A stretch of DNA of 24,322 bases, from the IMG/VR virus record IMGVR_UViG_3300044766_000040, positions 1 to 24,322 of that record; one strand, given 5' to 3'. The notes below the pieces were generated by a model, which was not told where the DNA came from, did not search any database, and was given only the letters and a program-made list of their open reading frames with translations. This document shows positions 1-22,897 of this stretch, in pieces. The translations under genes and the position numbers were made by a program. The stretch is from a virus. Every line of letters begins with the position of its first letter. The stretch's first letter is position 1.

Positions 1-209
1 GCTTGCTCCACCACAGAGATCTGCTCCTCTGTGAGGTGCTGGAACATCGGGACAAGGGTGTCCCGGATGAGGGCGGCGGCGCCGGTGGCCAGCGTGACGA
101 TCGCCGCCTCGCCGGGCACCAGAGCGTTGACCAACGCGCCGATGGTGTTCACGACGAGCACCATGTCATCCGCGCCGGCCTTGACTTGTACTGGAGTTGG
201 ATTTGCCAT
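1..209 (-). CDS. Hypothetical protein, 3' end cut by the window edge
   Basis: An open frame starts at the ATG at 209 and runs off the left edge after 69 complete codons, so its C-terminus is unknown. It begins MANPTPVQVKAGADDMVLV and continues with two fairly hydrophobic helical stretches (VNTIGALVNALVPG; AAIVTLATGAAALIRDTLV), then MFQHLTEEQISVVEQA. Codon use is GC-rich, as in the real genes here. Its A-rich leader after the lipoprotein stop (CAACTCATAAATCAATTATCAG) matches the local style of starts. It could be a small structural or membrane-associated protein; nothing identifies it. Confidence 0.6.
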   Translation of the reverse strand, partial: MANPTPVQVKAGADDMVLVVNTIGALVNALVPGEAAIVTLATGAAALIRDTLVPMFQHLTEEQISVVEQ

Positions 210-246: not shown

Positions 247-732
247 TTAGGAGGTCTTGATGACAATCGTTGAGCGGTACTGCGCGATGAGCGGCAGGAT
301 GTTCTGGATCACGGCGATCGCCCCTTGTAGCTTGTCGTGGGCCGTCGTCACTACGCTCCCGTCGGGCGCAGGAGTGTTGTTGGCCTTCGACGCCGCCACG
401 GCATCCGCGTATGCCTTGACCGAAGACGCATAGGCGCTGCGAGCGGTGTATGCCGTCTTCTCCCACGTGTCAAGGTTGGCCTTGATCTGCGAGGCCAGCA
501 TCACCGCCTGCGGGGCGTTCGCCGTGAGGAAGACATTGTTGGTGTCAACCCACGCGGTGAAGTCGAGCAGGCCGTGCTTGGCGTCGAGGATGGCCCGGTC
601 GGTCTGATATAGAACCGGGTCGGAGTAGGGGCCGCCCGCTTCGAGGACGACGGGTTTCGGGCAGCCGGTCAGCGCGAGGCCGACGAGCAGGACCAACACG
701 AGGGCTGGCATCTGGCGTTGGAGTGTCTTCAT
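247..732 (-). CDS. Predicted lipoprotein, helical
   Basis: A 161-residue protein with a lipoprotein signal: hydrophobic core (ALVLVLLVGLALTGC) with lipobox LTGC and Cys24 as the lipidated residue. After a Pro-rich linker (CPKPVVLEAGGPYSDP) the mature part is mainly helical: LYQTDRAILDAKHGLLDFTA, AVMLASQIKANLDTWEKTAY, ASSVKAYADAVAASKANN, TAHDKLQGAIAVIQNILPLI. A long helical outer-membrane lipoprotein near a holin-like gene makes an outer spanin or envelope-spanning role worth considering, but it lacks any specific motif. The leader (733-778) is A/C-rich with CCAGAACAAAG, like the leaders of the capsid and tail genes. Confidence 0.72.
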   Translation of the reverse strand: MKTLQRQMPALVLVLLVGLALTGCPKPVVLEAGGPYSDPVLYQTDRAILDAKHGLLDFTAWVDTNNVFLTANAPQAVMLASQIKANLDTWEKTAYTARSAYASSVKAYADAVAASKANNTPAPDGSVVTTAHDKLQGAIAVIQNILPLIAQYRSTIVIKTS

Positions 733-778
733 AGGAATCGGACTTTGTTCTGGTTTTGGTTGCGCGTTTCACTAACGA

Positions 779-1201
779 CTAACTAATGGGATAGAGCCTA
801 GTCACACCGTTCTGGGTGATCTTAACCCCCGTAACGATGTTTCCGGGGCCAGTGATGATGGTGAGCGTCGCGGTGTCGGAGGTCGCCGATCCGGCGGCGT
901 TAGTCACGACCACCGTGTAGACGCCTGCATCTGTGGACACCACAGTAGAGATAATGTAGGCGGAGAGGGGCACTGAGATGCCTGTTACATAGGATGGCAC
1001 CGCCACGCCAGTCGCGCCGGAGATGGCCGTGCCGTTCTTCTGCCATTGGAATGTAAACGGCGTTGTGCCGTCGCAAGACACGAGGTAGAAGGTGACGGTC
1101 TTGCCAGAGACGGCTGCTCCGGTAGAAGCACAGGCTGACGGAATGCCCATGGACACGCACAGGAGTGCGGCCACGGCGAGGATCTTGATTATGTTTTTCA
1201 T
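779..1201 (-). CDS. Secreted Ig-like domain protein
   Basis: A 140-residue protein with a signal peptide (MKNIIKILAVAALLCVSMG, probable cleavage after SACA, residue 25). The mature part is one Ig-like β-sandwich: PFTFQWQKNGTAISGATG (48-65) with W53 at the core, and STDAGVYTVVVTNAAGSATS (89-108) with the D-x-G-x-Y signature (Y95), ending ATLTI. The pairing of FQWQKNG with DAGxYTVVVTNxAGSATS is very common in large secreted Verrucomicrobia proteins, which suggests that a host domain was captured. Its role on a virion or host surface is unknown; Ig-like folds often give weak carbohydrate binding. The last 20 residues form a short, probably β, extension. It follows the lipoprotein gene at 15 bases with an A-rich leader. 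Confidence 0.78.
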   Translation of the reverse strand: MKNIIKILAVAALLCVSMGIPSACASTGAAVSGKTVTFYLVSCDGTTPFTFQWQKNGTAISGATGVAVPSYVTGISVPLSAYIISTVVSTDAGVYTVVVTNAAGSATSDTATLTIITGPGNIVTGVKITQNGVTRLYPIS

Positions 1202-1216
1202 GTTTCTTTTGTGTTG

Positions 1217-1870
1217 TTACAGGTTTAGGTCGATGATGACCGCGTTGCCTGAAGTAATGGTGGGGTTGTCGGCTCGTGGGGTCCATACCCGGACCTGAGC
1301 GGGCTTGCCGTCGGTCCGCGTGAGGCTTCCGATGGTAACATCGGTGGTCTTCTCCGTAGGCACTTGGGTGGAGATGCCTCCTAGCTCCATATCACAGTTT
1401 CCTGATCCTGGGGTGATGGTCACGGTCTCCGCATGAATCCCGTGGCATCCACCCTTGATCGTCCAGGCATTTTGCTGCCCCTCTTGGAGGTTGATTGCAC
1501 CACGGAAGGAAATGTTGGAGCAGTGGTTGTTCATGTCGATGTCCTGCTCCTGCTGGTTGCCGCCTGTGTAGACCGTAACCGAGCCGTCCACGAGGATGTT
1601 GACCGCGTGGGAAAACTTCAGCACGTCATTGTAGCCCGAGGCATCCGTTAGGATGATTGTGAGGCCGGGAATGACATAGACGGGTAGCGGTCCCGACCGG
1701 AGCTGGAGGCCGCCCGGGTTGGCAGGATTCGTCAGGAAGAGCGACCCTGAGTCGTCTCCACTGTAGGACCAGTAGTTGACGTCGGGGGTGGTCTGGGACG
1801 GTGAAAGGACGCAGCCGCCTAGCCCGAGCGTGAGGATCAGCAGGGTGAGGAGAAGGCGTGAGTTTTTCAT
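1217..1870 (-). CDS. Predicted lipoprotein, β-rich
   Basis: A 217-residue protein with a lipoprotein signal: MKNSRLLLTLLILTLGLGGC, with a lipobox LGGC and Cys20 as the lipidated residue. The mature part is β-rich with regular strands (SGSLFLTNPANPGGLQLR, PVYVIPGLTIILTDASG, HAVNILVDGSVTVYTGGN, AETVTITPGSGNCDMELGG). It may form a small β-helix or β-sandwich. No family is recognised. It starts six bases after the holin-like gene. Phage-coded lipoproteins are known as outer spanins, receptor blockers and superinfection-exclusion factors; this one is larger than typical outer spanins. Confidence 0.72.
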   Translation of the reverse strand: MKNSRLLLTLLILTLGLGGCVLSPSQTTPDVNYWSYSGDDSGSLFLTNPANPGGLQLRSGPLPVYVIPGLTIILTDASGYNDVLKFSHAVNILVDGSVTVYTGGNQQEQDIDMNNHCSNISFRGAINLQEGQQNAWTIKGGCHGIHAETVTITPGSGNCDMELGGISTQVPTEKTTDVTIGSLTRTDGKPAQVRVWTPRADNPTITSGNAVIIDLNL

Positions 1871-1876
1871 GGTAAG

Positions 1877-2197
1877 CTATTGGGCCGCCGCGTTAAGTTT
1901 GGACGCAGCCGAGGCGGGGGTCGGAGTGGGCGGCGGGTTGGGATTATCGAGCGTAGGCTCGAAGGCCGAGAGGTCGTCTGGGAACGGGTGGCTGTTGAAG
2001 TAAATCAGCGCGAAGGAGAGCATGCTGATGAGCAGTGGATGCCAAACATTCGCCCAGGTTACGCCGCCCGCGAGCTTGCCCGAGATGGCGTCGTTCACCA
2101 GCACGACGGCAGTGGTGACGGCTCCCTTGAAGGTCTGCGCGAAGAGGCCGTAGACGTAGTGCTGAAGCCAGTGTAGGAAGAGGTTCTGAGTTTTCAT
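1877..2197 (-). CDS. Holin-like small membrane protein (candidate)
   Basis: A 106-residue membrane protein. Residues 24-42 (KGAVTTAVVLVNDAISGKL) form an amphipathic or weak membrane helix, and 51-67 (VWHPLLISMLSFALIYF) form a clear one. They are joined by a short loop and followed by a Pro-rich, soluble tail (PNPPPTPTP). Size and layout suit a phage holin, which would permeabilise the inner membrane at lysis, but the tail lacks the usual charged residues and no endolysin gene is visible in the window. The ATG at 2197 was chosen because it overlaps the upstream stop as ATGA and starts ATGAAAAC like its neighbours; a longer frame from 2272 begins in the overlapped gene. Confidence 0.6.
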   Translation of the reverse strand: MKTQNLFLHWLQHYVYGLFAQTFKGAVTTAVVLVNDAISGKLAGGVTWANVWHPLLISMLSFALIYFNSHPFPDDLSAFEPTLDNPNPPPTPTPASAASKLNAAAQ

Positions 2198-2592
2198 GGG
2201 GTTGCGGGTTTGGTTGGGCCTAATGAGACGGGAGAGAAGGCCGGCTTCAGCGCAGCATCCTCGGCTGCCCACTTCGCGGCCAGCGGACCGAAGGCGTTCA
2301 GCAGGGCGTCCACGTCAGCCGAGACGGCCGCCGCCTCGCGCTCGATGAGCGGGAGCGGCGTGCTGCCGTAGGCGGTGCCGTCCGGACCGACCTGAATCCG
2401 CTCTCGGAAGATGAGTACCCATGTTCCGGGCCGTGCCCGTTCACTAATGATCTCTATGCGGGTAATGCGCTCGGTCGCGATGAGGGTGATGGAGGCGGCC
2501 TTCGCAGTGACCGGGGCGGCAATATCGACGCGCTTCGGGGGCGCGGCGGCGAGCAGCAGCGTGAAGGCGAAGAAGAGGAAGAGAGTTTTCAT
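2194..2592 (-). CDS. Exported protein of unknown function
   Basis: A 132-residue protein with a signal peptide (MKTLFLFFAFTLLLAAA, cleavage near residue 17). The mature part starts with a β-rich segment (RVDIAAPVTAKAASITLIAT, ERITRIEIISERARPGTWVL) and ends in a helical, Ala/Pro-rich stretch (VDALLNAFGPLAAKWAAEDA). No family is recognised. ATGA overlaps tie it to the genes on both sides, including the holin-like candidate below, so it is probably made together with them and acts in the cell envelope. Confidence 0.7.
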   Translation of the reverse strand: MKTLFLFFAFTLLLAAAPPKRVDIAAPVTAKAASITLIATERITRIEIISERARPGTWVLIFRERIQVGPDGTAYGSTPLPLIEREAAAVSADVDALLNAFGPLAAKWAAEDAALKPAFSPVSLGPTKPATP

Positions 2593-3068
2593 GGCGTTAC
2601 GATGGGAGTGAGAGCGGAGAGGAGCGTGGCGGGGATCGGGTTGGCGTCGAGCTTCAGCTCCTCCAGTTTGACCTTGGTGAGCTCCACCGTCAACGGCTGG
2701 GTGAGGATCTCGTTGTAGGCGGCTGTGAACTTGGAAACGCGCACAGAGTCGGTGGCCGCGATGGTGCCGGACTCGCCCCCGACCTGCTTGACGAGCGCGT
2801 TCCGCGCCTCATCAGCGGACTTCACTGAGGGAGCGAGGGCGGTGAGGTTCTGCGCGATGGTCCACCGGATCTTCCCTGAGAACTCATAGGGCACGACGAC
2901 GAGCTTGGCTGGCGCTTCGCCCTGCGGAACCACCTTCTGCTGCCCGTCGAGGGACGAGAGCGCGGCGTTCAGGGCGAGGGCGTCGGCCACCTTCAGTTTG
3001 ATCGGTTCCGCACAGAGCGCGGACGCCGAGAGGAGCAGAGCGATGACTAACAGGCGTTGTGTTTTCAT
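2589..3068 (-). CDS. Exported protein of unknown function
   Basis: A 159-residue protein with a clear signal peptide: basic start (MKTQR), hydrophobic core (LLVIALLLSASA) and an expected cleavage after ALCA. The mature part is mostly helical: KVADALALNAALSSLDG, SADEARNALVKQVGG, KFTAAYNEILTQPLTVELTK. It has no motif I recognise. A small protein of this style, with an N-terminal DALALNxALxxLDG segment, may recur in related phages, but I cannot confirm that here. It begins 12 bases after the fibre gene stop, and its own stop overlaps the next start as ATGA. It is first in a run of exported small proteins. Confidence 0.72.
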   Translation of the reverse strand: MKTQRLLVIALLLSASALCAEPIKLKVADALALNAALSSLDGQQKVVPQGEAPAKLVVVPYEFSGKIRWTIAQNLTALAPSVKSADEARNALVKQVGGESGTIAATDSVRVSKFTAAYNEILTQPLTVELTKVKLEELKLDANPIPATLLSALTPIVTP

Positions 3069-3080
3069 GGGAGAGGGAGA

Positions 3081-5390
3081 TCAGTCGTCAGTTAACTTGG
3101 CTGCGAGGTAGTAGAGGGTCCCACCTACATCGAGTTCAACTGTGCGATTGGGCGCGGTGGGGGAGACCGAATGAACCACGCCCAGCTTCCACGCGGCGGC
3201 GGTGCCACCAGCGGGAGCCGAGGTCTTGATGTCTCCGTTGACCTCCAGCTTCGCCCCCGGGCTCGTCGTTCCGATGCCGACGTTGTTGGTTGTATCGACG
3301 ACGATGCCTGGTCCATCTGCAAGGGTGCCTGTGGAGTAGCTGTTGCAAATATAGAGTCGGCTGTCACTTGCTTTCAGGCCGAAATGAGCCGAGCCCACAC
3401 CTGATTGGAAAATGAACAGGTCCGCAGATGTGCCCCCGCTCGCAGCCGTCGCAGCTAGGCCATTCGTAAATGAGCTCGGATCAGTGGTGGAGCCAAAAGT
3501 TCCGAGACCGATGACGTGTAGCTTAGAAAAAGGCGACGCTGTACCGATGCCGACGTTGCCACCTTTGAAGTAGACGCCGGCCGTGCTGCTGGGTCCGACC
3601 CAGGATTCTGCTGCGGTCGTCAATGCCCCCACCGCGGTCGTCGTCAGGGCTGTAAATTGAGGACTTCCCGCGGTGCTGTAGTCCTGATCAATCGTCGCGT
3701 TTCCGCTCAGCTTCAGCGTCCGCGCGGCGTTCACGAGGTCGAGGGTCAGTGTGCGTCCGGCGCTGAAGGCGGTCGAAGAAGTCGAGGCGATCGTCAGATC
3801 ATAGGCCGCGCTCGTGTCCCGCATCGCGAAGCCCGAGCTGGGAACGTGCACGGCGTTCGCCCAGATCGTCTTCGCGACGCCCATCCCGCCCGCCGTGATG
3901 ATCGCACCCGTGGCAAGTGTCGTGGCATCTGTAGTGGCGGCGGCGTCAAAGACATTTCCCCAGATCGTCTTCGCGACCGCGAGGCCGCCCGCCAGCGTCA
4001 CGCTACCAGTGGTCGTGTTGCTCGCGTCAGTCGTGTTTGCGACCGCCATGATGCCCGTCGAGCTGAACCCCATTCGGTAGGTGTTCGACGTGCCGAAGTA
4101 CAGGCCGTAGGCCCCGGTCGAGGTGATGTAGGCAGCCTCGCCCGTCGGCGATCCGCTGACGATCGAGCCCGAGTAGGTCGAGCCCGCGTAGCCGATCTCC
4201 AGCGCCCGCCCGCTGGAGTTTTGGTCATTGTAGCAGCGGAAGGACGAGTACCCCGTGGCCGTAGTCGCCTGCATGATGATGTTCACGCCCGTCGTGATGA
4301 CGGACTTCATGCTGGCCACTGCGCCCGAGGAAACCCAGAGCGGAAGCGAAGCATCTGCGGCCGCGCCGAGCCCGAGCCGGCCGAACTGGAAGACGGCCGA
4401 GGTGGATATGGCGAAAGCCCCGTCAGACCGGATCGCGCTGGTCGCCGTGCCGTTAACAGCCGTGTTGTTGGAGAGCGTCGCCGTCGGGTTGGCCACCGTA
4501 GTGCCCGCCGCATTGAGCGTCGTGCCAGAGAAAGAGAGATTGGTGCCGAGCGTGATCTGCTCGATGGCTCCAGTCGCAGCAGTGTTGCGGCCGAGCAGGT
4601 AACCCGTGCTCATCGTAATCCCCGTGCTGCCCACCGCCGCGTTGTAGGCAAGGACGCCGCTGCCGCTGTTGCTCAGCACGCCGGCCGCGTTGGCCAAGCT
4701 GGCCATCGTCAGCAGGATGCCGTTGACGGAGATCGTGCCAGTGGAGGTAATCGGCCCGCCCGTCAGCCCAGTCCCCGTCGCGACGCTCGTTACGCCCGTG
4801 GCCGGGGTGGGAATCCAAGAGCGTACGCCCACCAGAGTGCTGGAGAGTATGTAACCGTCGGCGGCGGGGTTTCCAAGCGCCGGTTCGGAGCCGATGTCCG
4901 CGCTGGTAAGCACAAGATTACTGCCGAGCGAGTGCGTGTTGATCGTCCGCCCGGTCGGCACGCCGTCGGTGATGCCGTACCCGGCGAGCGTCGTGTGGTG
5001 CGCCGCATAGTCCACGTCCGCCGTCGCGACCGCGAAAGCGGAGCCGGTGCCCTTCAAGATCCCGTTGAGCGTAGTGGTGACCGCGAGCGTCCCCGCTCCC
5101 GTGATTGGGGAGCCCGTGACGGTGAAACCCGTCGGCATCGTCAGCGCTACGCTGGTCACGGGCGAGCCCGCCGGGCTGATCGCGCCCCCGTTGAAGTAGA
5201 GCGTCGTGCCGATCACGTAGAGCTTGTTCGTGGTGGGGCTCGGCGAGTAGGACATGAACACGATGTCCTGCTGAACGGTGAGCTCCCGGACGAGCTGCTG
5301 TCCGTGCATGGTGAGGGAGAGGACCGAGAAAATGACCACTGCGATGATCAGCACGGCGGCCATCAAGATGAGCTTGAAGACAGTTTTCAT
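3081..5390 (-). CDS. Large fibre-like protein with N-terminal membrane anchor
   Basis: A 769-residue protein. Residues 5-28 (FKLILMAAVLIIAVVIFSVLSL) are a strong hydrophobic segment after a basic start, unusual for a fibre. The rest is low-complexity β-structure typical of phage tail fibres: Gly/Thr/Ser/Ala-rich, with GYGITDG, GTGLTGGPITSTGTISV, a 33-residue tandem repeat containing GVAKTIWxN, and two NVGIGTxSPxxKLxV motifs at about 612 and 702. Such VGIGTTSP motifs are common in receptor-binding and surface proteins. The C-terminus is short and has no peptidase-S74 chaperone domain, although the VGIGT motif often precedes one. It is coupled to the lectin-like paralogue by ATGA. It could be a tail fibre with an odd leader, or a surface-anchored protein. 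Confidence 0.75.
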   Translation of the reverse strand: MKTVFKLILMAAVLIIAVVIFSVLSLTMHGQQLVRELTVQQDIVFMSYSPSPTTNKLYVIGTTLYFNGGAISPAGSPVTSVALTMPTGFTVTGSPITGAGTLAVTTTLNGILKGTGSAFAVATADVDYAAHHTTLAGYGITDGVPTGRTINTHSLGSNLVLTSADIGSEPALGNPAADGYILSSTLVGVRSWIPTPATGVTSVATGTGLTGGPITSTGTISVNGILLTMASLANAAGVLSNSGSGVLAYNAAVGSTGITMSTGYLLGRNTAATGAIEQITLGTNLSFSGTTLNAAGTTVANPTATLSNNTAVNGTATSAIRSDGAFAISTSAVFQFGRLGLGAAADASLPLWVSSGAVASMKSVITTGVNIIMQATTATGYSSFRCYNDQNSSGRALEIGYAGSTYSGSIVSGSPTGEAAYITSTGAYGLYFGTSNTYRMGFSSTGIMAVANTTDASNTTTGSVTLAGGLAVAKTIWGNVFDAAATTDATTLATGAIITAGGMGVAKTIWANAVHVPSSGFAMRDTSAAYDLTIASTSSTAFSAGRTLTLDLVNAARTLKLSGNATIDQDYSTAGSPQFTALTTTAVGALTTAAESWVGPSSTAGVYFKGGNVGIGTASPFSKLHVIGLGTFGSTTDPSSFTNGLAATAASGGTSADLFIFQSGVGSAHFGLKASDSRLYICNSYSTGTLADGPGIVVDTTNNVGIGTTSPGAKLEVNGDIKTSAPAGGTAAAWKLGVVHSVSPTAPNRTVELDVGGTLYYLAAKLTDD
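3859..4010 (-). repeat. 33-codon direct repeat within the fibre gene
   Basis: The 19-base sequence CCCAGATCGTCTTCGCGAC (plus-strand reading) occurs at 3860-3878 and again at 3959-3977, 99 bases apart. At protein level this is two copies of a unit of the form TTxATGxxxxAGGxxVAKTIWxN. The unchanged reading frame shows an in-frame duplication, as is common in tail fibres. Confidence 0.7.
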
Positions 5391-6046
5391 AGAAAGGCGG
5401 CTCCCATGAGCTGGTAGTTGGCGGCCGGGATCGTCGCTCCGAAGTAGAAGCGGACAGCCGAGGCCGTGAGGGTGGAGAGATCCGGAGTGCAGGGAATCGA
5501 GAAGCCCCCGGCCGGCATGGCGATGTTGCCAATCACGGCCGTCGGAGTCACTCCGAAGGGCGTGTCAAAGACCACGTCAATGTAGTCAGTCCCGATGGTG
5601 AGTGCTGCGGCGAATCGTTTCACGTAGTCTTGTCCGGCCCCGGGCACCGGAATGTCGGTTGAGTCGAAGGAGCCGGCCTGAAAGGTATAGGCGGCCTCGG
5701 CCTCGACGCCCTCGGCCTTGACCGTCACGGAGACCAGCACAGCGTTCTGGAGGTTGAGCTGCTGCGTGTTCGCACCGTCTCCGGCGATCACCATAAGCGT
5801 CGCCTTGTTGGCGAGCGTCGCGGCGTGAAGCATCGCGTACACCTCGGCGTCCTTGCGGCTGGCGAACTGACGGCGCACGCTGAAGCTCAGGTCGGTCGAG
5901 AGGTTGCCCCGCGAGTAGTAGGTCATCGCGGTCGCGCGAAACAGCTCGGCCGGGTCGATCACCAGCTTCTGCGCCTGCGTCCAGCCGAAGACCTCGCCCG
6001 AGATCCCGCCCGGGCAGAGCACCACGCCGTTGTAGTAGATCAGCAT
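5387..6046 (-). CDS. Tail-associated protein, long paralogue with lectin-like C-terminus
   Basis: A 219-residue protein. Residues 1-126 are the paralogue of the preceding gene. Residues about 130-219 form an added β-rich domain: KRFAAALTIGTDYIDVVFDT, PFGVTPTAVIGNIAMPAGG, SAVRFYFGATIPAANYQLMG. The pattern of T-x-Y-x-D-V-x-F, a P-x-x-V-I strand and a closing N-Y-x-L resembles the H-type lectin or knob domains at tips of phage tails. The domain may contact host glycans or other tail proteins; this is a pattern-based inference. Its stop overlaps the start of the large fibre gene as ATGA, linking it to the fibre. Confidence 0.7.
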   Translation of the reverse strand: MLIYYNGVVLCPGGISGEVFGWTQAQKLVIDPAELFRATAMTYYSRGNLSTDLSFSVRRQFASRKDAEVYAMLHAATLANKATLMVIAGDGANTQQLNLQNAVLVSVTVKAEGVEAEAAYTFQAGSFDSTDIPVPGAGQDYVKRFAAALTIGTDYIDVVFDTPFGVTPTAVIGNIAMPAGGFSIPCTPDLSTLTASAVRFYFGATIPAANYQLMGAAFL

Positions 6047-6055
6047 GGGATCTCA

Positions 6056-6442
6056 CTAGCTGAACAAGCCTCCTTGGAAGCTGTAAGTCACCGTGATCGA
6101 GACGCCCATGGCCACCATCTGGACATTGGCAAGCACCGCATTGGTCAGCGTTACGTTCTGGGTGACGCCGCCCTCGCCGCAAGTCAGGACCAAGGAGGCC
6201 CGACCGGCGAGGGCGTTGATGTGCGTCGTGAGGAATACCCACGCGTCCTTGAGCGTGTTGAACTGGCGCGTGACCGAGAAGCCCAGCGTGGCGCTGATGT
6301 TGCCCCGGTGGTACCACGTCGCGGCGGCAGCGCGAAAAAACTCCGCCTGCTCGGTGATGCTCTTCTGATCCAGCTGGAACGCGGCTGGCTCCCCGGCGAG
6401 GCCGCCGGGGGCGAGGATGATGCCGCCGTAGGTGACGATCAT
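6056..6442 (-). CDS. Tail-associated protein, short paralogue
   Basis: A 128-residue protein of unknown exact role. It aligns along its whole length with the first 126 or so residues of the next gene. Shared positions include the opening I-x-Y-x-G-x-x-L-x-P-G-G, EFFRAAAATWYHRGNIS against ELFRATAMTYYSRGNLS, FSVTRQF against FSVRRQF, and a β-rich end (LTNAVLANV against LQNAVLVSV; YSFQGGLF against YTFQAGSF). This points to a tandem duplication. It lies directly after the putative tail tube gene, nine bases before its paralogue, so a role in the tail tip or as a minor tail subunit is likely. I do not recognise a named family. Confidence 0.72.
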   Translation of the reverse strand: MIVTYGGIILAPGGLAGEPAAFQLDQKSITEQAEFFRAAAATWYHRGNISATLGFSVTRQFNTLKDAWVFLTTHINALAGRASLVLTCGEGGVTQNVTLTNAVLANVQMVAMGVSITVTYSFQGGLFS

Positions 6443-9157: not shown

Positions 9158-9948
9158 GGCGCGCCTCCTCCCGTAAATGACAAAACGCCCTTCTTGAACA
9201 CCGCCCTACCGTGAAGGAAGTCAACAATGGCGTTCCTCAGTACGCCGTCCCGGATGCCGAGATCCGCCTGAAGATCCTCGTTGAGCCCCCGGTCCTGCGG
9301 CTCGACGCGATCGTTGGCGTCGAGGAGGCCGAGCCGCTCCGCCTCGCCCCGCTCCACGTCCGCGACATCCATGCCGCTGTTAAAAGCGAAGGGCGGGTAG
9401 GGATTCCCGAGCCCGTCATCAAACAGGTCCTGATCGCCGAGCTTGTCCCAGATCCCGTCATCCTTCCGGGCTACCATCCGGTCCCCTTCGAGTAGCTCTC
9501 CTCCAGCTGTCTCCCAGCGGTCCGGCCAGTCACGGGGCACCTTCTTTGCGTCCACGCGCACGAGCTCCTGAGCCGGCCACGCATCTAGGATGTCCTCCTG
9601 CTGCCCCTGAGTGAAGCTCCCATAGCCCTCGGCCATCTGGAGGTTGGTGTCGAGAATCAGGTTCAGCCGTGCGTCGCTGAGATCGGGCGCGCCGAGCTCG
9701 TCGATGATCTTCTTGAGCCGCGCGCGCTCGGCGTCCCGCGTGGTCCCTCCCGCGAGCATGTCGTCAATGGCCTCGCTGATCTTGCCGAGCTCGTCGGCCC
9801 GGGTGACGGCCGAGGAGAAAAAGCACCGCTCCCGGATCTCGGCGGGCAGCGCCCGCAACAGCTTGCTTCTCAGCTCGGTCGGCAGAAGCATCTTGGCCAG
9901 CCGGCTCTCCACAGCTTCGTTGAACGGCATTGGCTCGTCGAATATCAT
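9154..9948 (-). CDS. Minor head protein, Mu F/SPP1 gp7-like
   Basis: A 264-residue protein of the phage head morphogenesis group (PF04233-like). After a helical N-terminal half, LNLILDTNLQMAEGYG (95-110) matches the conserved Asn-containing helix. WETAGGELLEGDRMVARKDD (145-164) replaces the usual RPxHxxLHG block. NPYPPFAFNSGMDV (182-195) is the typical closing motif, in the PPFxxNSGM form that lacks the Cys-Arg-Cys of other members. Family members are minor virion proteins, some injected with DNA. In Mu this gene directly follows the portal gene; here it lies after capsid, adaptor and four carbohydrate-enzyme genes. It overlaps both neighbours as ATGA. Confidence 0.78.
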   Translation of the reverse strand: MIFDEPMPFNEAVESRLAKMLLPTELRSKLLRALPAEIRERCFFSSAVTRADELGKISEAIDDMLAGGTTRDAERARLKKIIDELGAPDLSDARLNLILDTNLQMAEGYGSFTQGQQEDILDAWPAQELVRVDAKKVPRDWPDRWETAGGELLEGDRMVARKDDGIWDKLGDQDLFDDGLGNPYPPFAFNSGMDVADVERGEAERLGLLDANDRVEPQDRGLNEDLQADLGIRDGVLRNAIVDFLHGRAVFKKGVLSFTGGGAP

Positions 9949-11552
9949 GGCGCGGTGACGGCCTCGGGGAATCCTTCCCGCGTGACCTTAAAGTGAGTGA
10001 CCGGCGTGACGAGGCCCTTGAAGGCCGCCACCCGGGGGTTCATCAGTCGGAGCTGGGGCGCAGCATCTATCCTCATCGGCAAGTAGTCCTCCCGATCGCC
10101 GCGCCACGTCGGCGCGATGAGTTCGCCATTGACGCGAAGCGTATTGAAGACGGCGCGTGTGAATCGGCGCGGGATCCCGAGGCGCTCCAGATGCCTCCGG
10201 AGGATGCCCTCGGGGTTGCGGCTGTCGGGGCGGGTGAGGGGCTTGGGCTGCGCGAAATACTGATAGACCGTTGTGCCAAGCTTGAAGTACTGCTCCATCA
10301 GTAGCGACGGACCGAAGGCAAAGCGATCGTTGATGCCGTTCCAGTTGTCGTGGCTCGGCGCATAGATCCCGTCGGGTGTGAGCGTCGAGAGCGCCTCCAT
10401 CGGCCGGACCACCTGAAGATCCGGGCGGCAGCGGATCACCCAATCATAGCAAAGATTCCCCTGCGCTTCTTCGGCCAGCCTTACGAGTGAGCCGACTACG
10501 AGATAGCCCTGCCACTGCTGCCAGATCATCTGCTCTGACTCAGCGCGGTTGCCCGGGTAGAAGATCGGGAGGCCCTTGATCTCGGGGTTGCGCTGCGGAT
10601 GGAGAATGGCCACCGAGGTCCACGGCCACATCTCCGCCCACGCCACGTCCTCCCGCCAGAGCGCTCCAAACCAGTCTACCTGAGCTCCCGGGCCTGCGGC
10701 TGCCTTGAACATCGCGTCGAGCCCGGCGGCGTTCTTGGCGAAACTCCTGATTTGCCCTGAGACGGCCACGGCGACGCGGAGGCGGGCCGCCGGCTTAATC
10801 ACCAGCTCTAGGCGCTCCCTGATGTCGGCTCGCGCCTGATGCTCGAATGCAGCCGCCTCCTGATAGTCACCCCAGTGCTTCGCGATGTTATCTGCTGAGA
10901 GCCGAGATCGCTGCACGCGCAATTGTTCGACGATTGCGCCAGTCGGTCCGATCCACTTAAAGTGAAGCAGGTAGGCCGTCGGGTTGCTAAACGGCCGCTC
11001 AACAATCGAGGGTAGCCGCGTCCCGTCCACCAGCACGGTCTTGCTGTCATGCGCGCCAACGTTGAAGCCGGTCTCACGGACCAGCGACGGCCGGAAGAAG
11101 ACGGGCTTGCCATAGCCCCAGAGCGAGTCGTAGCGCGCGCCGTGCCGGATCTCGTCATAGATCTGTCCCGGGCCGGTTGGAAAGGTCTCGCTCAGCATGT
11201 TCCAGCCGTAGGGCCGCACCATAGCGAGCCCCTGCGCCTCGTAGGCGGCGATCGTCGCCTCGACGCCGGCCGGGAAGTAGAGCAGCTCATCCGCGTCTAA
11301 CATCCCCACCCAGTCGGCGTCAGATCCCTTCCAGCAAGAGTTCTTGAGCTCAAGCGCCATCTGATCGTTCAGGCGATCACCTGTGTCCCAGTCCACGACC
11401 TCGGCCCCCATCGCCCGAGCGATTTCTCGGGTTCGGTCCGTGCTTCGGCCGTCATAGACCCGGATGCGCCGGGCGAACGTCTGGTAGTGACGGATCGCGT
11501 AGGCGATGATCCGCTCCTCGTTGTAGGCGAGAATGACAATGTCGATCTTCAT
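9945..11552 (-). CDS. Two-domain glycosyltransferase (GT2-like plus second GT-like domain)
   Basis: A 535-residue fusion. Residues 1-250 form a GT-2-like domain: DIVILAYNEE (4-13), then IRVYDGRSTDRT (30-41), where most family members have D-N/D-G-S, and WVGMLDADELLYF (81-93) with D86/D88 as the DxD pair. H198 in LLHFKW lies near its end. Residues about 258-535 form a second domain beginning RVAVAVSGQIRSF (259-271), with YDWVIRCRPDLQ (369-380) and APSHDNWNGINDRFAFG (398-414). That pattern is known from uncharacterised glycosyltransferase-like proteins in polysaccharide loci. A longer frame runs up to 12161, but the ATG at 11552 overlaps the upstream stop as ATGA and begins the conserved domain. 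It is coupled by ATGA to the minor head gene. Substrates are unknown. Confidence 0.8.
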   Translation of the reverse strand: MKIDIVILAYNEERIIAYAIRHYQTFARRIRVYDGRSTDRTREIARAMGAEVVDWDTGDRLNDQMALELKNSCWKGSDADWVGMLDADELLYFPAGVEATIAAYEAQGLAMVRPYGWNMLSETFPTGPGQIYDEIRHGARYDSLWGYGKPVFFRPSLVRETGFNVGAHDSKTVLVDGTRLPSIVERPFSNPTAYLLHFKWIGPTGAIVEQLRVQRSRLSADNIAKHWGDYQEAAAFEHQARADIRERLELVIKPAARLRVAVAVSGQIRSFAKNAAGLDAMFKAAAGPGAQVDWFGALWREDVAWAEMWPWTSVAILHPQRNPEIKGLPIFYPGNRAESEQMIWQQWQGYLVVGSLVRLAEEAQGNLCYDWVIRCRPDLQVVRPMEALSTLTPDGIYAPSHDNWNGINDRFAFGPSLLMEQYFKLGTTVYQYFAQPKPLTRPDSRNPEGILRRHLERLGIPRRFTRAVFNTLRVNGELIAPTWRGDREDYLPMRIDAAPQLRLMNPRVAAFKGLVTPVTHFKVTREGFPEAVTAP

Positions 11553-12070
11553 GAGAACGCCTGAGTGCGGTCGGGTCTCATCCCGTTCAAATGGAGGCAG
11601 CCGGCGAAGTCGGCGCGCCCGAGGCTGGCCACCCGATTGGAGGCGACGGTCGCGGTGAGGTGCGTATGGTCGATGCCCCGGAAGGCCCCGACGCGCTCGG
11701 CCCAATGCTTGAGAAAGGTGCGCGCGCCCTCTGTGTCCGCGATGAACATGCACTGCGCCGCGATCCGGTTTTTGTGCGTCTTCACGGGATTCTCCGCGAG
11801 CGCCACGTCCCACGTCCCGGCCGGTAGGAGCGGCGCGCGGAGGAGGAGCGTGTCGATGTCGAGGTAACAGAGTGGGCCCTTGAGCCGCCCCCGGAGCGCG
11901 AGCAGGGCGCGGGGCTTCTGACCGGTATTCTCGGCCCAGTCGTTGACGCTTGTCATTTCCTCGACCGAGCACGGGATACCGATTGAGTCGGCTTGGGCGT
12001 AGAAGCGCTGCATGCAGTCGCGGTATTCCGGAGTGCAGAAACCGACGATGGTGTAGGGTGGGGGACTCAC
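11549..12070 (-). CDS. Small GT-A-like glycosyltransferase
   Basis: A 173-residue protein that looks like a compact GT-A-fold transferase. It starts with a β-strand (YTIVGFCTPEY) followed by a helix. The key motif is GPLCYLDIDTLLL (65-77), with D71 and D73 forming a DxD metal/nucleotide-sugar site. AAQCMFIADTEGARTFLKHW (104-123) and CLHLNGMRP (158-166) match the order of acceptor-side and late metal-binding elements in such enzymes. It starts at GTG (12070), giving a GTGA overlap with the methyltransferase, and its stop overlaps the next start as ATGA. It is short for a glycosyltransferase, so it may be a minimal catalytic domain that works with its neighbour. Confidence 0.7.
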   Translation of the reverse strand: MSPPPYTIVGFCTPEYRDCMQRFYAQADSIGIPCSVEEMTSVNDWAENTGQKPRALLALRGRLKGPLCYLDIDTLLLRAPLLPAGTWDVALAENPVKTHKNRIAAQCMFIADTEGARTFLKHWAERVGAFRGIDHTHLTATVASNRVASLGRADFAGCLHLNGMRPDRTQAFS

Positions 12071-12780
12071 GGGAGATGCTTCCGGTTGCGGAGGGCGTCG
12101 AGGGCCTCCTGCGCGCGCGGGCCGCGCGTGTGATCATACCATTGTTCAAAATCTCGGTCATCCTCCTTTGTCTTCACCAGCGCCGCGAGGCGCGTTGGCG
12201 GGCAGGCAATCAGGTCATAGTGGAGATGCGCCATTGCATGGGCGACCACGCTCTGCACCGCCGGAAACTGAAAGTCATCAAAGACCACGACGCCGCCCAC
12301 GTCCAGCATCCGGTCGATGAAATAGAAGTCCACAAACGTCGGGTCCATACGGTGGTCGCCGTCGATGAAGGCGAACTGGATGCGGTGCCCATCGTGCGCG
12401 AGGTGCGCCAGAGCCCAGTCGGAGCGCTCCTGGCGGAAGTCTACGAGGTTCCGGAGCCCGTAGCGATCGAGCGATTGAAGCCCGACACCGTGGTAGGTAT
12501 GGGGTCCTCCGGGGAGATCCTGATGCGGGTCGAGGATCGTGGCCCGCGCCCCGTTCTCGTTGTCCCGGAGCGCCGCGCAGATCGCTGTCGAAGAGCCGCC
12601 CCACGCCAACCCAACCTCCACTGTCCGGTGTGGTTTCAGGGCGCGCACTGTCTTGTAGAGGTACTCGGCCGCCACGCGGGTGACCGAATACTCGCGCACG
12701 ATCGTAACCGTGGTGCCGCGTGCTGCCAGCTTCACGTTGGAGCTGTAAAAATCGTCGAGGAGCTGGTCGATGGACATCAT
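12067..12780 (-). CDS. Class I SAM-dependent methyltransferase (Methyltransf_24-like)
   Basis: A 237-residue methyltransferase. Motif I is RTVEVGLAWGGSST (52-65), the glycine-rich loop for S-adenosylmethionine. RATILDPHQDLPGG (79-92) holds the acidic end of strand 2, FAFIDGDHRMD (137-146) is the motif IV region, and GGVVVFDDF (162-170) follows. This order is typical of the Methyltransf_24 group, which includes sugar O-methyltransferases and cephalosporin-hydroxylase-like proteins; the HxxxxD arrangement suggests possible metal dependence. The ATG at 12780 was chosen because it overlaps the upstream stop as ATGA. The following gene starts at a GTG overlapping this stop. Sitting between glycosyltransferases, the simplest reading is methylation of a sugar residue; a protein or small-molecule substrate is possible. 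Confidence 0.82.
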   Translation of the reverse strand: MMSIDQLLDDFYSSNVKLAARGTTVTIVREYSVTRVAAEYLYKTVRALKPHRTVEVGLAWGGSSTAICAALRDNENGARATILDPHQDLPGGPHTYHGVGLQSLDRYGLRNLVDFRQERSDWALAHLAHDGHRIQFAFIDGDHRMDPTFVDFYFIDRMLDVGGVVVFDDFQFPAVQSVVAHAMAHLHYDLIACPPTRLAALVKTKEDDRDFEQWYDHTRGPRAQEALDALRNRKHLP

Positions 12781-13859
12781 GAGGTGGTTTGGGCGGGCGG
12801 GCGGGCCTTGATCATGGCTGCATTCACGATCGCCGCGAGGTTGGGGAGGGAGGAGTGGATGATCCAGTGCAGGGCCGCTCCGTTCTGGATCTCGGGGATG
12901 GTCCACTGCCCGTAGGCCAGCCGGCAAAGGTATTCATGCACGTCCTGAATGCTGACATAGGCGTGCCCGCCGGCCTCCGCCTCCGCGCCCCAGCCGTAAT
13001 CAGCCACTAGGGCATAATGCGCATCCTGATGGCAGTCCACAGCGACGCCTGCCAAGATCGCCTCCACAGCCGAAGTCGAGTTGTACGTCACGGCCACTCG
13101 CGCGTCCGCCAGCGCCGTCGCGAGCGTCTCCACGTTGGAGAGCCGCGTGCGTACGTAGGGGATCGGCTGTAGCCCCAGCGCCATCGCCATCGGGTGCGGC
13201 CGGTAGTGGACCTCGTAGCCTTGGGCCTGCCAATAGCCGGCCCGTTCCGACAGGTAGGCGCTCAGCGCGGCCGAGTTGAGCCCGTGCTGGGAGTCTCCGG
13301 GGAGCTGCCCGAGGATCAACGCGACCTTCTCGCGCGCGGGCGCGGCCGGGGGCGCGAGCGTCACTCCGAGCGCGCTGAGCCGGTCCCCGGGACATGGCAT
13401 CGAAGGGATCGCGCCGACGCGGCCAATGCCGATCTGGTTGTAGCCAGTCGCGTCCTGCGCGTGGGAAGCGCGCTGGATGTAACCGAGATCCGCGATAACC
13501 AGCGGGATTCCGGCTGCCTTCAACACGCCACGGGCCCAACCCTCGACCGGGTGCATGCCGGACGTGAACGCGAGCAAGACGCCGTGCTCGCCGGCCGGCG
13601 CTTTGATCAGGTCCAGCAGCCGGCGACTCTCGCTCTCCGCCAGCGCGAGGGGCTCGCCGCCGAGGGCCTTGACTCCCATGGCGAAGGCCTGCAACCGGAT
13701 CTTGTCGAAGTAGGCCCCCAGCTGGAGCGCCCGCCACGTCGCGCCCCGCTCGCTCGGGTTTAGCGGCGTCGGCCAAGTGAGGCTGCGCCCCACGCTAGCA
13801 GCCGTCATGAAGATCATCGCCGGCCGGGCAGTCGGATCGCGTTGAACGGAGGTGTCCAT
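12777..13859 (-). CDS. GT-B-like glycosyltransferase (capsule-synthesis type)
   Basis: A 360-residue protein that looks like a GT-B glycosyltransferase of the group that includes capsule-polysaccharide and glycerophosphate transferases. The C-terminal half carries VHYRPHPMA (217-225) and ARVAVTYNSTSAVEAILAGV (253-272), the latter a typical nucleotide-sugar binding loop and helix near the end of such enzymes. The N-terminal half contains VLLAFTSGMHPVEGWARG (94-111) and LVIADLGYIQR (120-130). No signal peptide or membrane segment is seen, so it should act in the cytoplasm. It is the first of four carbohydrate-related genes, starts six bases after the adaptor gene, and its stop overlaps the methyltransferase start. 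The donor and acceptor cannot be read from the sequence. A KpsS-like relationship is inferred from motifs only. Confidence 0.7.
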   Translation of the reverse strand: MDTSVQRDPTARPAMIFMTAASVGRSLTWPTPLNPSERGATWRALQLGAYFDKIRLQAFAMGVKALGGEPLALAESESRRLLDLIKAPAGEHGVLLAFTSGMHPVEGWARGVLKAAGIPLVIADLGYIQRASHAQDATGYNQIGIGRVGAIPSMPCPGDRLSALGVTLAPPAAPAREKVALILGQLPGDSQHGLNSAALSAYLSERAGYWQAQGYEVHYRPHPMAMALGLQPIPYVRTRLSNVETLATALADARVAVTYNSTSAVEAILAGVAVDCHQDAHYALVADYGWGAEAEAGGHAYVSIQDVHEYLCRLAYGQWTIPEIQNGAALHWIIHSSLPNLAAIVNAAMIKARPPAQTTS

Positions 13860-17595: not shown

Positions 17596-19308
17596 TCAGG
17601 GTTTCACGGCCTCGCCCTTCGCGAGCGGCTCCTCGGTGGGATCGGCCGTGTGGAGGAAGGCCTGTTGCTGGTGATGGGAGGCGAGCGCCGCGTGGTGAAC
17701 GGCCACATCCGGCTTGGTCCCCGGGGCCTCGGAGGCGTCCTTGTGGGCGCGGGCCGCCTTGAGGTGGGCGAGGGCCGCCGCGTCGTGATCCTTGGGCTTG
17801 CCGGTCTCGAAGGCTTGGGCGCTCGCGTCGTGGGCCTCGGAGGAAGCGCCGTGCGCCTCGGCCGAGCAGTTGCACTGCTCCGGCTCGGGCTCCGGCGCGT
17901 TGGAGATCCGGACGGGGCGGGGGAAGGGGGCGCTGTTGTGGACGGCCGGGGTGCCGGCGCGGCGGTGGAAGTCGGCGAGCCCCTTGTGCATCGAGGCGAG
18001 GTTGGAGTGCTTGCTGAGGTCGGGGCCTCCGCCGCCCCGGTGGAAGGTGTCCTGATGCTGCTTGGCGGCCTCGTCGTGCGCGGCGGCAGCGGCGGAGTGG
18101 TCCTCGGGCTTGCCGGAGCGGTGGGCCTGAGCGGAGGCGCGATGCGCGGCCATGGAGGACTTATTCGCCCCGCGCGCGTCCGGGTCCGGGCCGCCGTCTG
18201 GGGTCCAATTGCCCCGCTCGGCCCGGCTCTGCCCGGGATCGAAGTTGGGCATCATCGCCGCCTCGATTGAGGGGGCGGAGTTGGGATGGCGTCCGGGCAG
18301 GTAATCCTTCAGCACCATCGAGAGCTTTGCGGCGCGGTCCCGGTGAATGTCGGCGCTCTTGATATGGAGGATGGCGCGCTCCGTGTGGTAGTCTCGGTCG
18401 AGGCCGTCGGAGTGCTTGGCGGCCGTGAGGTGGGCGATGGCGGCGTCGCGGTGGTGGCCCTCGGCGACAATGTGATCCTCCTGTTGCCCGTCCTGCCGAG
18501 CGACTTTGTCGGATACTTTCGCCCGCGCGCTCGCCTGTGAAGCAGCATGGGCAGCCTCGGCATATTGGTTGCCGTGGAACTCATGTCCGGGTAAGTCACC
18601 GTTGACCAGAGCGGAGTCGAGCGCGGCGTTCGCCTTGCCATCAGGCTCTTTCACGCTCCCGCCCATCTTCTCATAGATCGTAGCGACGACTGGCCAGTAG
18701 GCCTCGTCATCGAGCGAGTAAGTCTTGGACGCAGCTTCCTTTGCCTTGTCCCACACGTCCTCGTCTTCCACCCAGCCCGCTGGGTTCTTTCCCTTCTTGA
18801 ACTGCGCGTGGGCGAGCGCCCCGAGATGGATCGAGCGGCCGGTGAGCTTCTCGCCCTTGACGGGCGTCGTGAAGTTGGTCTCGGAGAGGCGCGAGGCTCC
18901 GACGGTGCCGGAGTCGGTGAGCTCGGTGTTGCCCAAGAGGGCGGATTCGAGCGAGGGAGGAGCTTTCATGGAGGAGTTGGAGAGATTGTGCTTGACGGGA
19001 TGAATGAGATTGGACCGAAAGATATGGGTGACGTGGGCAATGGGTGCCTTCGACTCATCAGTCAACACTTTGCCTGAGCCCGCAGCGCCCAGCTGGTAAC
19101 GGCTCTCGTAGGTCAGATTCTTTAGCCCCACCTTTAGGACCTTCACCGCGCTGCCCCCATAAGAAATGCCGGGTGCGTCGAGCCGCACGTGATCTCCAGC
19201 TCGGATCTCGGAGGCGCTCAGCTCTGGCCCCGTCGTCCACTGATTGCCGTGGAAGTCGTGACCGGGAAGGTCACCGTTGGCTACTAGAATGGCGAAGTCC
19301 AAAGTCAT
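17596..19308 (-). CDS. Large His/Ala-rich repeat protein with two GHxFHGNQ motifs
   Basis: A 570-residue protein of unknown function in the head module. It begins with the motif NGDLPGHDFHGNQW (11-24), repeated almost exactly at 236-249 as NGDLPGHEFHGNQY. A third, related sequence, FDPGQSRAERGNWTPDGG (356-373), resembles the ERGRWT motif seen in many phage minor head proteins. Residues 201-217 (DEAYWPVVATIYEKMGG) resemble a segment found in other phage structural proteins. The part after 250 consists of three long helical repeats rich in Ala and His (about 251-330, 386-451 and 484-554). Each contains a core of the form GKPxDHxAAAxAHxxAAxxH, or a diverged version in the first copy. There is no signal peptide. 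Its place between portal and protease suggests a virion or assembly protein. The functional call is open. Confidence 0.72.
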   Translation of the reverse strand: MTLDFAILVANGDLPGHDFHGNQWTTGPELSASEIRAGDHVRLDAPGISYGGSAVKVLKVGLKNLTYESRYQLGAAGSGKVLTDESKAPIAHVTHIFRSNLIHPVKHNLSNSSMKAPPSLESALLGNTELTDSGTVGASRLSETNFTTPVKGEKLTGRSIHLGALAHAQFKKGKNPAGWVEDEDVWDKAKEAASKTYSLDDEAYWPVVATIYEKMGGSVKEPDGKANAALDSALVNGDLPGHEFHGNQYAEAAHAASQASARAKVSDKVARQDGQQEDHIVAEGHHRDAAIAHLTAAKHSDGLDRDYHTERAILHIKSADIHRDRAAKLSMVLKDYLPGRHPNSAPSIEAAMMPNFDPGQSRAERGNWTPDGGPDPDARGANKSSMAAHRASAQAHRSGKPEDHSAAAAAHDEAAKQHQDTFHRGGGGPDLSKHSNLASMHKGLADFHRRAGTPAVHNSAPFPRPVRISNAPEPEPEQCNCSAEAHGASSEAHDASAQAFETGKPKDHDAAALAHLKAARAHKDASEAPGTKPDVAVHHAALASHHQQQAFLHTADPTEEPLAKGEAVKP

Positions 19309-21153: not shown

Positions 21154-21458
21154 TTGTGATGCCGTCGGATTTCAAGCCACATCAGGAAGAGACAGAAAAA
21201 GAATGTCATGCCGGATCCTAAGCACAGCCACATGTCAGTCTTCAAGAAGTCCGCGCCGTGGAGCCGCGACTCATAGACCACCGCCCGCTCCCAGAACTCG
21301 ACCCCCAGCACGAGCACCACGGTCTCGATCGTCGTCAGGCGCACCTTCGCCGACGGCGGAACCACGAGAGGGCACTCCGCGAGCGGCGTGGACTCCGTTG
21401 GCAAGAACGGGCAGCGCAGGGGCTGCTTGGTGGGCGGAGGTGGGATTAGTTTCTTCAT
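21150..21458 (-). CDS. Small membrane protein between large terminase and portal
   Basis: A 102-residue protein of unknown function. The N-terminus is Pro-rich (MKKLIPPPPTKQP). The middle is hydrophobic and may contain a first, weaker membrane helix around 42-56 (TTIETVVLVLGVEFW). Residues 76-95 form a clear membrane helix (MWLCLGSGMTFFFCLFLMWL), followed by a short basic end (EIRRHHK) that suggests a cytoplasmic C-terminus. It is joined by ATGA overlaps to the large terminase on one side and to the portal gene on the other, which strongly supports it being translated. A membrane protein here is unusual. It could help assemble proheads at the membrane or act in lysis or exclusion, but nothing in the sequence decides this. 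Confidence 0.7.
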   Translation of the reverse strand: MKKLIPPPPTKQPLRCPFLPTESTPLAECPLVVPPSAKVRLTTIETVVLVLGVEFWERAVVYESRLHGADFLKTDMWLCLGSGMTFFFCLFLMWLEIRRHHK

Positions 21459-22897
21459 ACGCCCGGCATCCTTCCCCGGCCGAAGCCGCCCCCCATCCGT
21501 GCCACCGCGAGGTCGAGATCCTCGGAGCGGTGGGAGTCCACGACGCCGAGCCCGCTCCGGCCGGCGCTCGATCCCTTGCGCAGCATCTCGGCGAGCGCGA
21601 GCGCGTTCACGCAGTCATCGTTCATGCCCTCGGGGGCCGAGTAGCAGACCATCGTCTCCCGATAGATGAACTCGAAGGACTCCAGCTCCAGAACGAGTGC
21701 CGCGCAAACGTCCGGATCATACCGGACGGACCGGGCTTGGAGCGAGGCGGCGAGGTTCTCCATGAGCTGCTGCTTGGACTTGTTCGTGTAGACGTAGCCT
21801 TCAAAGTTAGAGCCTCCCCGGTTGTGCAGTTCATCGAGCGTCTGATCGCCGCCGCCCGTCGAGTCCACGAGGCCCCGCGCGCCGGCCGTGATTGAAATGA
21901 TGAGGTCCCACGTCACGGGCCACGGCTTCTTCTGCCAGCGCTCAAAGCCGGACACGTGCCCGTCCTCGTCGAGGCCAACGCCCACGGTGTAGTCAACGTG
22001 CTTCGCCAAGTCCCAGCCCCACGCCACGGCGGGCTTCCGGGAGAGACCGCCGGAGAGCTTGCAGGCCTCGATCGCGGTGAACCCGAATGGGTTGTTGTCG
22101 TCCCCCGTGTCCTCGACATCATAGAGCTCCTTGAAGACGCGCTCGGGCAGGACGCGCTGCGCCGCCTCGTACTCCTCCTGATCGTAGAGGCCGGCGGCGA
22201 TCGCCTGCTTGGCGGTGATCTTGTGGTAGGCCATCCCGGCCGCCATCCGCTCCTCCCGCGTCCGGAGCTTCTCGGCCTCGCGGGCGAGCTTGTATGCCCA
22301 GTTGTGACGGCCCTTGCGGTTGCCGATGATGCGGACGGGGCCGCGCGTGTGCGTGAGGGTCGAGCGGATCGCCCACCACGCGCTCGACTTCATGCGGGTC
22401 GCTTCGTCGCAGACGGCCGCGTAGACATCGTCACCGTAAAGTGAGTCGGGCCGGTCCGCGCCCTTGAACGTGATCGTGGTGTCGGTGTCGAGGAGCGTGA
22501 TCGAGAGCCGGGACTCATTCGAGTGGAACGCCTCGCGGGGCAGCCCGCGCTTCAGGCGCTCGTACGCGATCCGCGCCGTGCCGCCCACGGGGGCGATCCA
22601 CCAGTACTGGTACCCGGGCCGCCCGAGGTAGGCGTGCTCGGTGAGCCACTGGAGGCAGCCCGAGGTCTTGCCGCTCTTGGTGGCGGCCTCGATGACCGAG
22701 ATCCGGGCGGCCTCGTAGATCGCCGCCTCCTGCTCGGGATAGAGGGCGGCGCGCTGAATCTCGATCCGGCGCGGGGCGGGCGGGGCCTTGGTGGCGGTCT
22801 GGACGAAGCCGGCGGCGGCCGGCGGCGCGGCCGAGCCCGCCTGATCATCGGCGGCGGTGGGGGCTTCGGCGATCGCGTCGGGAGGGGCCTCTATCAT
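21455..22897 (-). CDS. Terminase large subunit (packaging ATPase/nuclease)
   Basis: A 480-residue motor protein that drives ATP-dependent packaging into the prohead and cuts the concatemer. The ATPase half shows a Walker A-type loop at 71-80 (AATKSGKTSG) and a Walker B strand at 158-166 (VYAAVCDEA). The nuclease half shows the acidic residues expected of the RNase H-like fold: D296 and D302 in WGWDLAKHVDYT, D345 in GLVDSTGGGD, and D427/D428 in GMNDDCVNALAL. The first 45 or so residues are Ala/Pro-rich and look disordered. The ATG at 22897 was chosen because it forms an ATGA overlap with the upstream stop; a longer frame starting at 23032 begins with non-coding-looking sequence. The length is normal for the family. 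It is followed by a coupled membrane protein and the portal. Confidence 0.93.
   Translation of the reverse strand: MIEAPPDAIAEAPTAADDQAGSAAPPAAAGFVQTATKAPPAPRRIEIQRAALYPEQEAAIYEAARISVIEAATKSGKTSGCLQWLTEHAYLGRPGYQYWWIAPVGGTARIAYERLKRGLPREAFHSNESRLSITLLDTDTTITFKGADRPDSLYGDDVYAAVCDEATRMKSSAWWAIRSTLTHTRGPVRIIGNRKGRHNWAYKLAREAEKLRTREERMAAGMAYHKITAKQAIAAGLYDQEEYEAAQRVLPERVFKELYDVEDTGDDNNPFGFTAIEACKLSGGLSRKPAVAWGWDLAKHVDYTVGVGLDEDGHVSGFERWQKKPWPVTWDLIISITAGARGLVDSTGGGDQTLDELHNRGGSNFEGYVYTNKSKQQLMENLAASLQARSVRYDPDVCAALVLELESFEFIYRETMVCYSAPEGMNDDCVNALALAEMLRKGSSAGRSGLGVVDSHRSEDLDLAVARMGGGFGRGRMPGV

Follow-up and report, generated by a model that had tools for sequence, protein, structure and literature searches.

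At the end of the late operon of an IMG/VR virus record (IMGVR_UViG_3300044766_000040; 24,322 bases, classed as linear and analysed whole, hereafter the window), we found a cassette of envelope-protein genes whose core recurs in phages with unrelated virion genes. This core consists of a holin-like membrane protein, two lipoproteins, an exported immunoglobulin (Ig) protein and a protein of about 90 amino acids. Our tentative preference is to read it as part of a late-operon envelope cassette that phages of diderm hosts exchange and that would open the envelope for release. The virion genes recognised in the window all lie on the minus strand and run through terminase, portal, adaptor and tail-region genes to a fibre-like gene. 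After it come the six exported or membrane proteins that a first-pass annotation had reported at 247-3068, and a seventh gene that runs off the contig. An inspection of open reading frames and N-termini found all six on the minus strand in the order claimed, and the features of this region are as follows.

3081..5390, minus strand: fibre-like protein of 769 amino acids, starting MKTVFKLILMAAVLIIAVVIFSVLSLTM, a signal anchor or signal peptide
2589..3068, minus strand: exported protein of 159 amino acids with signal peptide MKTQRLLVIALLLSASALCA; variable part of the cassette
2194..2592, minus strand: exported protein of 132 amino acids with signal peptide MKTLFLFFAFTLLLAAA; variable part of the cassette
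1877..2197, minus strand: holin-like small membrane protein of 106 amino acids with two hydrophobic segments; core gene
1217..1870, minus strand: lipoprotein 217, with lipobox LGGC at Cys20 and a beta-helix model; core gene
779..1201, minus strand: exported Ig (I-set) protein of 140 amino acids, with a signal peptide and a Pfam I-set domain; core gene
247..732, minus strand: lipoprotein 161, with lipobox LTGC at Cys24 and a long-helix bundle; core gene
3..209, minus strand: start of a protein of about 90 amino acids without a signal peptide, cut by the contig end; core gene

A search of IMG/VR with lipoprotein 217 retrieved three contigs (G001, G002 and G003), and the five core genes, of which 3-209 is the last visible in the window, occur together in all three. 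As in the window, they follow the fibre and close the late operon. The cassette matches of G002 are the same as those of G001, so that the independent comparisons number two rather than three; further cassette scans of IMG/VR gave no contigs beyond these. Lipoprotein 217 is 71% identical to its counterpart in G001 and 52% to that in G003, with corresponding values of 54% and 56% for the Ig protein, 67% and 38% for lipoprotein 161, and 44% and 39% for the holin-like protein, which occupies the same place in each. The product of 3-209 reaches 71% (90 amino acids in G001) and 51% (99 amino acids in G003), adjoining lipoprotein 161 in both phages, and a coiled-coil protein with one transmembrane segment comes after the core in G001 and G003 alike. 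Across the core, substitutions are most frequent at third codon positions, and where the proteins are conserved, the phages differ at the majority of four-fold sites—on this substitution pattern, the core genes are coding and under purifying selection.

Outside the core, tblastn between the window and its relatives found only the G003 fibre and two short matches (28 and 30 residues, E about 0.001), and what G001 and G003 have in common is the core plus one weak nuclease-like match. Their virions differ accordingly in type: G001/G002 is a lambda-J-tailed siphovirus, with a DUF4055-type portal in G001, G003 has an SU10-type portal, and the window encodes a Mu-type portal (PF06074, 3e-47) together with a Mu gp36-like adaptor (Pfam search) and a terminase matching PHROG 2 (5.5e-23). 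Judged by these comparisons, the core is an exchangeable module and not part of one virion, and its presence in phages with unrelated virion genes points to a function at the host envelope rather than to virion components. The neighbourhood comparison that the first-pass annotation had proposed thus recovered a recurring unit, G001/G002 and G003 each carrying the five genes, although its outline is not that of the annotated six. The genes at 2194-2592 and 2589-3068 are variable additions to the cassette, for which homology to the relatives' exported proteins was tested and not shown, whereas the core gene 3-209 fell outside the annotated set and the fibre joins the exported group. Similarly, the statement that no soluble gene interrupts the series holds for the order in the window but not for the relatives: G003 has HNH-type genes interspersed, along with swapped Ig and lipoprotein-217 genes, and G001 has a soluble 85-amino-acid gene ahead of the holin-like gene.

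Within the window, the genes are tightly coupled, with ATGA overlaps at 5387/5390 (the fibre start codon and the preceding stop), 2589/2592 and 2194/2197, and other gaps of at most 46 bases. For the holin-like gene, the start at 2197 was preferred over a longer GTG open reading frame because of the ATGA overlap with the upstream stop and because both relatives start there. No promoter or terminator signal near the cassette rose above shuffled sequence.

Classical signal peptides were recognised in five of the six annotated proteins, two of these with lipoboxes; the sixth, the holin-like protein, has its two hydrophobic segments and no signal peptide. The signal-peptide and lipobox check hence supported the two signal-peptide proteins, the exported Ig protein and both lipoproteins. 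In a crude uniform scan, six of seven consecutive window genes had export-type N-termini, compared with at most two in phage loci without the cassette—a scan that undercounts, giving only one to three in the cassette-bearing relatives, and that serves for comparison rather than measurement. This bears out the view of an unusually dense envelope-protein set, and the clustering of export-type genes inside the window has a P of about 2e-4. Both lipoproteins lack Asp at +2, and the lipoboxes and signal peptides are kept in the window, G001 and G003, again with no Asp at +2. Under the +2 rule of Escherichia coli, lipoproteins without Asp at this position are expected in the outer membrane, which is where both would be expected here.

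For four of the five core families, searches of Pfam, PHROGs, NCBIfam and PADLOC gave nothing convincing. The exception is the Ig protein, in which Pfam recognises a single Ig I-set domain (3.9e-7) and which matches Hoc-like decoration proteins (PHROG, 7e-12); both in PHROGs and in the PDB, the proteins closest to this domain are Hoc-like decoration proteins and tail proteins. The signal peptide of this protein ends in an invariant PSACAST and is better conserved (63-74%) than the mature part (52-54%), as seen across the window gene (779-1201) and loci L092 (10624-11001) and L094 (9564-9959). Possibly this signal peptide is retained; alternatively, the Cys of PSACAST may belong to an unusual lipobox. 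Lipoprotein 217 is predicted to be a right-handed beta-helix, with a predicted local distance difference test (pLDDT) score of 73 for the model and above 74 from about residue 71. Its Z scores of about 10-12 (maximum 11.9; VIA-align) relate it to tailspikes and pectate-lyase-type beta-helices, and Foldseek returned one uncharacterised phage protein (E 3e-4). The three sequences of its family have an invariant stretch, QTTPDVNYWSYSG, shortly after the lipid anchor. Weak matches of lipoprotein 217 to cold-shock proteins were judged to be chance in view of its lipobox and beta-helix prediction. Lipoprotein 161 is modelled confidently as a long-helix bundle (pLDDT 80.8, helices at residues 39-155), and its structure matches are generic helix bundles only. 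The holin-like protein has moderately hydrophobic segments and a Pro/Ala-rich tail; it gave no Pfam or PHROG match, no match to a holin family, and only a weak, unrelated one in NCBIfam.

The absence of an endolysin from view, as noted by the first-pass annotation, was confirmed for the window fragment. Phage lysozyme, amidase 2, M15_4, SLT, amidase 3, M23 and CHAP families (PF00959, PF01510, PF13539, PF01464, PF01520, PF01551, PF05257) had no match in the window, G001 or G003, and the controls worked. Altogether, eight lysin families had working controls, and PF00182 and PF05838 were searched without one. NlpC/P60, in the lambda-K tail position, was the only lysin-family match in Pfam scans of the 39 G001 proteins; G003 was scanned less completely, with 25 of 34 matched families among the matches listed. 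Beside the two window lipoproteins, no coiled-coil spanin partner with an N-terminal anchor was recognised. These results suggest that a classical endolysin is absent from the three records, all of them classed as linear and possibly incomplete, so that a distant endolysin could lie outside. The portal relatives of G001 offer a direct comparison: Stenotrophomonas phage Bhz54 and Pseudomonas phage PSASB_03 (53-54% identity) carry an endolysin, a holin or unnamed counterpart, and a small protein with a single transmembrane segment directly ahead of the terminase small subunit; their tail genes are followed by little or nothing, and by no such cassette. G001 has none of this block before its terminase, and the cassette sits after the tail genes instead; within one portal lineage, the lysis genes of these relatives are thus at the opposite end.

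Drawing from these features, a route to host exit can be outlined. The cassette genes would be transcribed last, together with the virion genes; the holin-like protein would reside in the inner membrane and the two lipoproteins would line the outer one, while the variable exported proteins, like the Ig protein, would act in the periplasm or at the surface. By jointly weakening the envelope or opening it as infection ends, these proteins would bring release to completion, and the cassette would replace the holin/endolysin block of G001's known relatives. The resemblance to the holin-endolysin-spanin cassettes of lambda, P2 and T4 (PMC6139136) lies in late genes at the end of a structural operon, a small membrane protein with two hydrophobic segments, and lipoproteins. 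In contrast to those cassettes, the one described here has neither an endolysin nor a recognised spanin pair; its two lipoproteins, modelled as a beta-helix and a helical bundle, are larger, and it includes an exported Ig protein. A stronger version, in which the core is a self-contained release system that moves between unrelated phages of one host group, its holin-like, lipid-anchored and Ig proteins dismantling a diderm envelope without a dedicated endolysin, strikes us as unlikely.

Several observations weigh against assigning the cassette to release. A muralytic domain is recognisable in none of the cassette proteins; the lipoproteins exceed typical o-spanins (outer-membrane spanins) in size, and no inner-membrane partner (i-spanin) was identified; the coiled-coil/transmembrane protein after the G001 core looks cytoplasmic by charge. 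The holin assignment derives from size and topology, and the three linear records, G003 being the less completely scanned, may lack a distant endolysin. Moreover, a beta-helix lipoprotein (as modelled) and an Ig protein would suit surface or receptor functions at least equally well.

Lysis, superinfection exclusion and surface display, the roles put forward by the first-pass annotation, all hold up as sensible candidates. If the role is superinfection exclusion or lytic conversion, the phage receptor would be blocked or removed by the lipoproteins and Ig protein once these reach the outer membrane and cell surface, so that neither the infected cell nor its debris would capture progeny or competitors; the holin-like gene would then be a mere neighbour. 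We regard this as a serious rival, somewhat less likely than release. The best precedent is the exclusion lipoprotein Llp of T5, whose gene adjoins, downstream, that of the receptor-binding protein pb5 (PMC9586334). Like Llp and the Cor proteins of T1 and phi80 (PMC9586334), the window encodes outer-membrane-type lipoproteins downstream of a fibre gene, both of them conserved, with lipobox signal peptides (LGGC, LTGC) and predicted outer-membrane sorting. The likeness ends there: with about 140-200 mature amino acids, these lipoproteins lie well outside a small family of about 61, their folds differ, and several proteins stand together at the late-operon end. A modelled beta-helix would suit the binding or cleavage of glycans, and the predicted fold of lipoprotein 217, a parallel beta-helix, is that of polysaccharide lyases and tailspikes (PL3 pectate lyase, VexL, CBA120 TSP3), although lipoprotein 217 is short and lipid-anchored and the likeness is one of predicted fold alone. 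Transfer among phages with unrelated virions likewise fits a common host-surface target; however, the G001 and window fibres are unrelated, which makes one common receptor less obvious, and the cassette has no similarity to PADLOC defence models. Timing also argues against exclusion: T5 Llp is an early product, according to the title of a reference cited in PMC9586334, but the cassette closes the late operon, and no promoter of its own was found for it. The evidence does not decide between release and exclusion; release is favoured because the genes come late, one of them is holin-like and G001 lacks the lysis block of its relatives.

Two further explanations start from the surface character of the proteins. 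In one, they belong to the virion, the Ig protein decorating particles in the manner of Hoc and the others being structural, attached after release. The nearest relatives of the Ig domain and the adjacent fibre gene speak for this, and a single I-set domain in a phage does recall Hoc-like decoration proteins (PHROG 2973, 4069). Unlike these, however, the window protein carries a signal for export, which argues against Hoc-like assembly in the cytoplasm and which is better conserved than the mature domain. Signal peptides and lipoboxes would direct the cassette products out of the compartment in which virions assemble, and they recur alongside unrelated sets of virion genes; for these two reasons we consider a virion role very unlikely. 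In the other, the cassette is a fitness moron for surface display or host benefit (adhesion or protection from grazing) with no role in release or exclusion, and the exported fibre-like protein belongs to the display. Such folds as Ig and beta-helix are characteristic of surface proteins, and a signal sequence starts the fibre-like genes of the window phage and G003; yet the position at the late-operon end, the holin-like gene inside the unit and the Pfam matches of the 47.7-kb G001, which include no lysogeny genes, make this improbable. For most phages of poorly cultured environmental diderm bacteria, little beyond the virion genes is understood, and a five-gene module in phages with unrelated virions and no recognisable classical endolysin offers defined proteins with which to study how such hosts are exited or sealed off.

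The fibre-like protein has a hydrophobic N-terminal signal or anchor, and its body is 41-54% identical, in separate segments, to the G003 fibre, which also begins with a signal peptide; the window fibre had no match in phage records. A signal sequence thus opens the fibre-like genes of two phages (window 3081-5390; L094 4250-7456), an odd feature for a tail fibre, which assembles in the cytoplasm.

Other searches returned no further relatives. Used singly as queries against IMG/VR and genome contigs, the fibre-adjacent gene, the holin-like protein and the portal retrieved none, the tail tube and major head protein had no match in phage records, and the concatenated cassette minus the Ig gene gave no tblastn match among 50,697 phage records at E up to 1. 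A genome collection of 84,980 species likewise yielded no match to the lipoprotein profile. TerL relatives had no cassette profile match except one at chance level, and a gut contig with a related portal (L005) proved to be an ordinary Mu-like phage. As for the host, Shine-Dalgarno-like motifs are few in all three phages (4/25, 1/11 and 3/15 genes), which is consistent with one host group; together with ATGAAAA starts, they lead us to guess at a Verrucomicrobia-type host.

Additional observations concern the remaining genes of these phages. The TerL gene of the window (21455-22897) encodes a protein about 50% identical to those of many IMG/VR phages (L008-L087) with almost no other detectable gene in common; by this comparison, the terminase is exchanged on its own. 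Two neighbouring tail-region genes (5387-6046 and 6056-6442) are paralogues, 45% identical over 128 amino acids (E 2e-37), the former with an additional C-terminal part. Beside the portal, 17596-19308 encodes a 570-amino-acid protein with repeated His/Ala-rich motifs and no PHROGs or Pfam family match. Pfam matches in G001 (L095-L097) include a 5-hydroxymethyldeoxyuridine (5-hmdU) DNA kinase helical domain and a thymidylate synthase, suggesting that its DNA may be hypermodified. Finally, glycosyltransferase-type genes lie within the virion block of the window (9945-13859: a glycosyltransferase, a methyltransferase-like protein and an unassigned 360-amino-acid protein), one of family 9 adjoins the portal in G003 (L098 3632-4765), and another lies between terminase and portal in Tunturiibacter phage Tunturi_4 (L002 1567-2565).

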